Assembly (NCBI GenBank): GCA_029245345.1
Contig: JAQWPM010000011.1
Coordinates: forward strand, 1 to 52,256
Source of the DNA: Longimicrobiales bacterium
GTDB lineage: Bacteria; Gemmatimonadota; Gemmatimonadetes; Longimicrobiales; Gaopeijiaceae
DNA: 52,256 nt
Direction: 5' to 3'
In this document: piece after piece, positions 50,613 through 52,207 of the stretch
How positions within the stretch are numbered: the first letter of the stretch is position 1
Layout of the letters: each line of letters opens with the position of its first letter
Notes under the pieces: model-generated
What the model was told of the DNA's origin: nothing
What the model saw: the letters and a program-made list of their open reading frames with translations, nothing else
Database searches by the model: none
Position numbers and translations under genes: made by a program

Positions 50613-51227
50613 CTAACGCAGCTCAACCACTCCGTGCGGTGTCCGGATTCGAGCCGCGAGCCGAGGTACCTTTCCGAAGCGAACGACCATATCTAGGCCG
50701 AGTGCTTCGACCCGCGCGCGGAGCTCTTCCGGATTCGGACACTCGGCCGTGATGTCCACAAACGAACACTCCTGCGGCAAGCTCGCCCCTGGGTGCGGTG
50801 TGTCTCCCCAGTCCAGGAAGAACGGAATCAGGCCGCCGTTTCGCTCAGCACGGGGGTCTGAGAAGCCCCAAGCGATCGTGGTGCCGTCCGGCTTCTGGCG
50901 ACTCGCCGTGCTCGGCTCGCCGAGATCGACACCCGCCGCACGTCCCGCAGCCACCACGGCCGGCAGATCACTGCTCTTGGCTGCCCAGGTGACCAGCGTC
51001 GGCTCGGTCACCGCATCGACCCCCAGCCACCGCGGCTCAAAGGGCTCCGGCTGAGCCGGGTCGACCCCGAGCACCTCCAAAAAGGTGTCTTCAGATAGCG
51101 CCAGCAGCACGTTGCGCGTCCCTCTGCCCTGGTGAGAACCACCGGGCTGCATCTTCACGCCCAAAAGCCCCTCGATATGGGCGATTCCTTCGTCGAGGTC
51201 GCGGGCGACGAAGACCAGATGATCCAT
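50613..51227 (-). CDS. Glyoxalase-like (VOC) domain protein
   Basis: This protein of about 204 residues starts MDHLVFVARDLDEGIAHIEGLLGV and contains GGSHQGRGTRNVLLAL near 30-45, a hallmark of the Glyoxalase_3-type family. IPFFLDWGDTPHPGASLP lies near 138-155. It is cytoplasmic with unknown substrate. A TTG start at 51242 would add five residues; I prefer the ATG, although neither has a clear ribosome site. It is the third gene after the secreted protein and the ArsC selenoprotein in one minus-strand operon, with a 16-bp gap from the selenoprotein stop. Confidence 0.8.
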   Translation of the reverse strand: MDHLVFVARDLDEGIAHIEGLLGVKMQPGGSHQGRGTRNVLLALSEDTFLEVLGVDPAQPEPFEPRWLGVDAVTEPTLVTWAAKSSDLPAVVAAGRAAGVDLGEPSTASRQKPDGTTIAWGFSDPRAERNGGLIPFFLDWGDTPHPGASLPQECSFVDITAECPNPEELRARVEALGLDMVVRFGKVPRLAARIRTPHGVVELR

Positions 51228-51243
51228 CGGATTCGAGGTCAAA

Positions 51244-51600
51244 TCATCCGCCCATCAAGACCGAGGCGAGCATGTCCTGGTTGTATCCGACCAGAAGTCT
51301 GGCTCCAGACCTGAGCGTGGGTGCGCGCAGCTTGCCAGAGCGGCCGAGTAGCAGTGCCAACAGATCGTCATCCGGCGGACGCTCCGCTGCGAGGTCCACG
51401 TGGAGCACGTTCTTGCCTTTGGCGACGTAGAGATCGGTAACACCGCCCAAAACGCCGAGCGCGGCCTTTCCTTCTACCGGAGCCTTACCCGCGCTTTGGA
51501 CTTCGCCGTCAGCCACTGCATTCGTCTCAAGAAACTCTTGAGTGCGTTTACAGCTTGTTCAGCCAGGGCGGTGGTACCGCCACTCGAGAGAGATCGTCAC
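51244..51600 (-). CDS. ArsC-family selenoprotein (UGA-encoded Sec14)
   Basis: Read from GTG 51600 with UGA (51561-51559) as selenocysteine, this encodes 118 residues. The N-terminus is MTISLEWRYHRPG-U14-TSCKRTQEFLETN, so Sec14 and Cys17 form a U-x-x-C redox pair at the end of the first strand of a thioredoxin-like fold. The body has the ArsC-like pattern: VTDLYVAKGKNVLHVDL, a helix with LLALLLGRSGKLRAPTLRSG near 85-104, and the strand ARLLVGYNQDML. A plain ORF call starts only at 51516 and loses the active site. TAA lies two codons ahead of the GTG, so no longer start exists. Cysteine-containing homologues have CxxC here, as I recall. It probably reduces a thiol or selenium/arsenic substrate. 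The gene lies 6 bp after the stop of the secreted-protein gene. Confidence 0.8.
51526..51542 (-). promoter_or_regulatory. Putative bacterial SECIS hairpin
   Basis: On the minus strand CTCAAGA-GTT-TCTTGAG forms a perfect 7-bp stem with a 3-nt loop. The loop starts with G and lies 23 nt after the UGA at 51559-51561, which is within the spacing seen in bacterial SECIS elements (apical loop with G in the first two positions, some 16-37 nt from the UGA). It would recruit SelB with Sec-tRNA. It lies inside the coding sequence (codons 20-26). Confidence 0.65.
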
Positions 51601-51606
51601 GGGTTT

Positions 51607-52077
51607 TTACCGAATCCGTTCGTAGATGGCGTGACCCACCGAAACGATCTTCCCGTCTTCATCCAGGCGGACGTATTCGTTGCTGATCGTATTGCCGTCT
51701 TCTGAGAGTGTGTTGATGATGACCTGAGTCACCCGGCCGTTGGCCCGATTGGTGATTCGGGTCGCACGTTCGTCGATAAACTCGACTGCGGTGTCTCTCC
51801 CCTCCTGGCCGACCACCGGACGGAATTCACCGTCAAACGTGGTGGCGTACCCCCATTCGTTCGCGCGGCCATCTCCGTTGACGGAAGCGACCGTGATTTT
51901 CATGCCGCCGTCCATGTAAGGCTCGTACGTCATGATGTTGCTCGACGGCGGCGGAGCACTGGACTGCATTTTCCACTGGCCGTAACGCGTCTCCGCCGTC
52001 TGCGCAGAAGCGCTCGACACAGTGAGGGCCAGTGTCAGAAGTGCTGTGCAACCCGCACCTAAAATCCGTGTCCGCAT
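51607..52077 (-). CDS. Secreted protein of unknown function
   Basis: This 156-residue protein has a signal peptide (RILGAGCTALLTLALTVSSASAQ, cut near residue 24). The mature part looks like a small beta-rich domain: RYGQWKMQSSAPPPSSNIMTYEPYMDGGMKITV, EWGYATTFDGEFRPVVG, ATRITNRANGRVTQVIINTLSEDGNTISNEYVRLDEDG. This pattern is common in soil and marine bacteria, but I cannot name a family. GGAG 8 bases before the ATG at 52077 supports the start. It is the promoter-proximal gene of the operon with the selenoprotein and the VOC protein. Confidence 0.6.
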   Translation of the reverse strand: MRTRILGAGCTALLTLALTVSSASAQTAETRYGQWKMQSSAPPPSSNIMTYEPYMDGGMKITVASVNGDGRANEWGYATTFDGEFRPVVGQEGRDTAVEFIDERATRITNRANGRVTQVIINTLSEDGNTISNEYVRLDEDGKIVSVGHAIYERIR

Positions 52078-52207
52078 AGTGATGCTCCAACTTTGGGACC
52101 GCGGGGCCCGACCCGCGCTCGGGTTCGCCAACGGTCCTGTGATTCACAGGTAGACCACCATGCGGTGCCGAGCCCCGGTCGGCAAGCGGGTCAGGCGTTC
52201 TGAATCG

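Follow-up and report, generated by a model that had tools for sequence, protein, structure and literature searches.

Selenocysteine (Sec) in proteins of the ArsC superfamily has been described several times. An ArsC-like selenoprotein was noted already in 2006, and the 'ArsC-like' and distant ArsC selenoproteins of Deltaproteobacteria (PMC1794560) share with the protein described here the presence of Sec in an ArsC-superfamily protein, although they were reported from other phyla and were likened to it by description. A 2008 survey of the marine GOS data distinguished ArsC 1 (motif UxxS) from ArsC 2 (motif UxxC), the latter being listed as 'Arsenate reductase 2' (cd03032, ArsC_Spx) with the number 238 in the last column, taken by us as the count of Cys homologues (PMC2398784). 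In a 2026 review the NCBIfam family NF041106 appears as 'Arsenate reductase-like protein', with UxxC, among the predicted selenoprotein families (PMC13188914); the row cites a survey numbered 61, which we take to be PMC2398784. Our literature search returned no report on the NF041106 family in Gemmatimonadota. The other described system that comes close is Spx, the RNA-polymerase-binding redox regulator of Bacillus, Staphylococcus and Streptococcus.

We analysed a stretch of 52,256 nucleotides (the window) of contig JAQWPM010000011.1 from a Longimicrobiales bacterium (Gemmatimonadota, assembly GCA_029245345.1), in which an ArsC/Spx-like gene with an in-frame TGA is found (Table 1). With this TGA read as Sec, the minus-strand frame 51600-51247 translates to VTISLEWRYHRPG-U-TSCKRTQEFLETNAVADGEV...VGYNQDMLASVLMGG (118 residues), in which residue 14 is the only internal TGA and Cys17 follows three residues later (VTISLEWRYHRPG-U-TSCKRTQEFLE..., motif U-T-S-C). 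The position of the GTG start, six bases past the TAA of the preceding gene (51609-51607), is matched in many relatives. The single TGA at the first residue of a CxxC-type motif, the Cys and the tightly spaced GTG had all been put forward in the original prediction, and the translation agrees with it. The assignment of the Sec codon is based on the TGA in those relatives for which the codon was read, on the one TGA present in each of the 66 members from the phylum and on the alignment to Spx. The UxxC pattern by itself is unconvincing, because a mechanical scan of the window yields 15 frames in which an interrupting TGA has the spacing of UxxC or CxxU; the frame with TGA at residue 14 stands above chance because homologous sequence flanks its TGA on either side. 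By eye, the other 14 frames have the appearance of low-complexity off-frame readings.

Table 1. Features at the selenoprotein locus (positions are those of the window)
Feature	Position	Strand	Remarks
Downstream gene, Glyoxalase_3 (PF13468) protein	50613..51242	-	
Complete ArsC/Spx-like selenoprotein gene	51244..51600	-	begins with GTG; 118 residues; terminated by TGA at 51246-51244
ORF of ordinary gene calling, truncated (90 aa)	51244..51516	-	strand 1 and the active site with UxxC are missing; 73.5 bits, below the family cut-off
Putative SECIS-type hairpin	51526..51542	-	stem CUCAAGA/UCUUGAG (7 bp), loop GUU starting 23 nt after the UGA
Predicted Sec codon TGA, residue 14	51559..51561	-	first position of UxxC; in the alignment, opposite the first Cys of CxxC in Spx
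Upstream gene, small protein	51607..52131	-	likely signal peptide from an internal ATG (MRTRILGAG...); no family match

The read-through protein reached 115.2 bits against NF041106 ('ArsC family (seleno)protein'; curated cut-off 85 bits) and covered profile positions 1-106 of 107, compared with the subthreshold score of the truncated frame, which had rightly been described as lacking its first strand and active site. The family is defined by a UGA or a Cys codon at the first position of UxxC/CxxC, and here TGA was found at that position, with Cys17 at the last. The model was also matched by all aligned rows (24/24, representing 23 distinct proteins with that of the window counted in). The match to Pfam ArsC (PF03960; 28.8 bits, slightly above the gathering threshold of 24) is at the level of the superfamily only, and the curated Spx models were not reached (26.9 bits against a cut-off of 123 for NF002459 and 26.2 against 75 for TIGR01617), for which reason we do not file the protein as Spx. 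We conclude that the locus is almost certainly a genuine selenoprotein gene of NF041106, in which UGA14 is decoded as Sec with the help of a hairpin and of which the product is likely a Sec14-Cys17 oxidoreductase. With the members described by NF041106 it has the whole-length match, the Sec position and the UxxC motif in common, and no distinguishing feature was found; as the family, its motif and its Sec nature were already catalogued, the gene is an ordinary added member. The gene had been called hidden, and so it is to a plain gene caller; the term goes no further than that, as precisely this family is covered by a curated model at NCBI.

The TGA is strictly conserved. Among 298 sampled genomes of the phylum, with membership counted at E <= 1e-12, exactly one TGA was found in each of the family members (66/66), as it was in all near relatives scoring above the family cut-off, and in those close relatives where the codon opposite residue 14 was read directly, it is TGA. 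The aligned relatives share the invariant residues U14, C17, W7, Y9, H10, R11 and G13; in these relatives the first 13 residues are conserved to the same degree as the remainder, and the N-terminal WRYHRPG and TSCKRTQEFL match the C-terminal LRAP...G...VGYN in degree of conservation. The expected homology upstream of residue 27 thus exists, the alignment running through the TGA into the N-terminus. Homologues with Cys at position 14, which had been suggested as a comparison, are absent from the phylum sample, where the members keep TGA; the Cys equivalents are more distant Spx/ArsC proteins. In this respect the phylum sample differs from the GOS 'Arsenate reductase 2', which has the same motif and belongs to the same superfamily branch but for which 238 Cys homologues are presumably listed.

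The named relatives are Gemmatimonadota MAGs almost throughout. Two members close to the Gemmatimonadota ones come from MAGs with other titles, L056 (Gammaproteobacteria, with a TGA region identical to that of L028) and L061 (Candidatus Latescibacterota); perhaps these MAGs carry a mistaken title or the contigs were misbinned. We also observed a divergent branch of the family in genus g78 (e.g. G120 and G095), of which every member has one TGA and scores 64-74 bits, below the cut-off of 85; the NF041106 model may miss this branch.

Directly downstream of the TGA a hairpin is found with a G in its apical loop, as is characteristic of the bacterial SECIS element, and a role as SECIS is predicted. 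In size and placement the hairpin agrees with the known bacterial SECIS rules. Calculated for the window sequence by itself, the hairpin's stability is modest (z -1.8). In the comparison of 26 distinct sequences, pairing holds in 98.9% of the hairpin cells, with compensatory exchanges at two pairs (GC/UA/AU and AU/GC) and AU/GU variation at a third. The covariation score was reached by none of 500 shuffles and all slid registers were far worse, the sequences being related and the independent events thus few. In more distant families of the class the hairpin recurs, either in the same form or with a stem of CCCAGG/CCUGGG whose register is shifted by one base; the latter, with an AGUU loop, is found for instance in L072, L074 and L081, which belong to another family in the class.

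That the host has selA, selB, selC and selD had been presumed, and the genome of the window indeed contains selA (548.8 bits), selB (above cut-off), selD (376.4 bits) and a tRNA-Sec (65.1 bits, gathering threshold 47), identified by ARAGORN as tRNA-SeC with anticodon tca (UCA). SelD has an in-frame TGA of its own (LSHGAG-U-ACKLG), and Sec-containing SelD is a well-known form of the enzyme. This selD (L010:1396-2589, minus strand, contig C24) is a second UGA gene in the genome that plain calling would clip. In the phylum sample selA was found in all 66 genomes that carry the family. Within the window's own family the gene is present in 46 of 59 selA-positive and in 0 of 14 selA-negative genomes (Fisher p = 5e-8, with genomes counted and shared ancestry uncorrected). 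In G003, a fragmented genome, a partial match containing a TGA lies at a contig end and selA was not matched, which we attribute to the incompleteness of this genome.

These observations bear on how the TGA is to be read. It could be a real stop, leaving a pseudogene or a protein translated from 51516 without the active site; this is the reading that an ordinary gene caller delivers, and we consider it very improbable. In all, 22 distinct relatives keep the frame and the flanks through the TGA at 42-72% identity, and a decayed gene would not keep frame, flanks and TGA alike. Even less credible is a sequencing or assembly error that turned a Cys codon (TGC or TGT) into TGA, a possibility that the original prediction had raised and for which nothing was found: assemblies made independently, from the same genus as well as from several families in the class, have TGA at this codon, and its presence in all members of the phylum sample excludes such an error at residue 14. 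Another route of reading the TGA, be it a general reassignment of this stop codon or near-cognate read-through, with Trp or Cys inserted for instance, derives some room from the fact that the residue at UGA14 is deduced; we hold it to be just as improbable as a real stop, in view of the complete Sec machinery including tRNA-Sec, the SECIS-type hairpin, the co-occurrence with selA and the fact that this gene itself ends in a TGA that serves as a normal stop. We infer the actual insertion of Sec at UGA14, the redox chemistry and the kind of substrate considered below.

The AlphaFold2 model has a thioredoxin-type fold (pLDDT 94.4, pTM 0.88). Its best structural matches are Spx proteins (Z 8.8, rmsd 3.1 over 88 residues, these Z values being modestly above those of unrelated rows), and the leading Cys of the CxxC motif in Spx falls precisely on U14. 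The protein has the fold, the location of its redox pair and the C-terminal motif Lr.P...VGYN in common with Spx, in which Cys occupies the place of Sec; nevertheless, the window protein scores only 26-27 bits against Spx cut-offs of 75-123. Spx proteins are also the closest solved sequences (profile E about 1e-9), and true arsenate reductases are absent among the closest PDB sequence matches, an absence that is no proof of difference. By sequence and predicted structure the protein thus appears to lie nearer to Spx than to true arsenate reductases, and the label 'ArsC-family', which holds for the superfamily fold, should for that reason not be taken to mean arsenate reduction, the closest solved relatives being Spx. 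Classical ArsC has a single catalytic Cys in a CxxS-type motif, along with arginines that bind arsenate. A true arsenate reductase would agree with the Pfam ArsC match and with the fold search, in which arsenate reductases appear at Z about 7, tied with others; we regard it as unlikely given the proximity to Spx, the motif UxxC and the immediate neighbours, none of which is an ars gene.

The upstream gene, for which no match was found in Pfam or NCBIfam, also adjoins the selenoprotein gene in L023, of the same genus (65% identity), with a weak match in L024. The adjacency of the Glyoxalase_3 gene was seen in none of the relatives' flanks examined, and no conserved operon partner was found beyond close relatives.

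In the proposed mechanism SelB with Sec-tRNA-Sec would decode UGA at codon 14, aided by the hairpin, to give a small protein that falls in the ArsC/Spx branch of the thioredoxin superfamily. Sec14 and Cys17 would most likely form a reversible selenenylsulfide, and the product, likely a cytosolic Sec/Cys oxidoreductase, would most likely act on thiol-disulfide or peroxide-type substrates. There is a slim chance that the family serves Gemmatimonadota-type bacteria as an Spx-like redox switch that exists with Sec only, sensing by way of a selenenylsulfide and perhaps acting on transcription, in a lineage that retains Sec and lacks a Cys version. The window gene is a clean case of plain gene calling clipping a selenoprotein so that its active site is lost, and the phylum sample presents a family that is seen in the Sec form only, together with a conserved SECIS-type hairpin.
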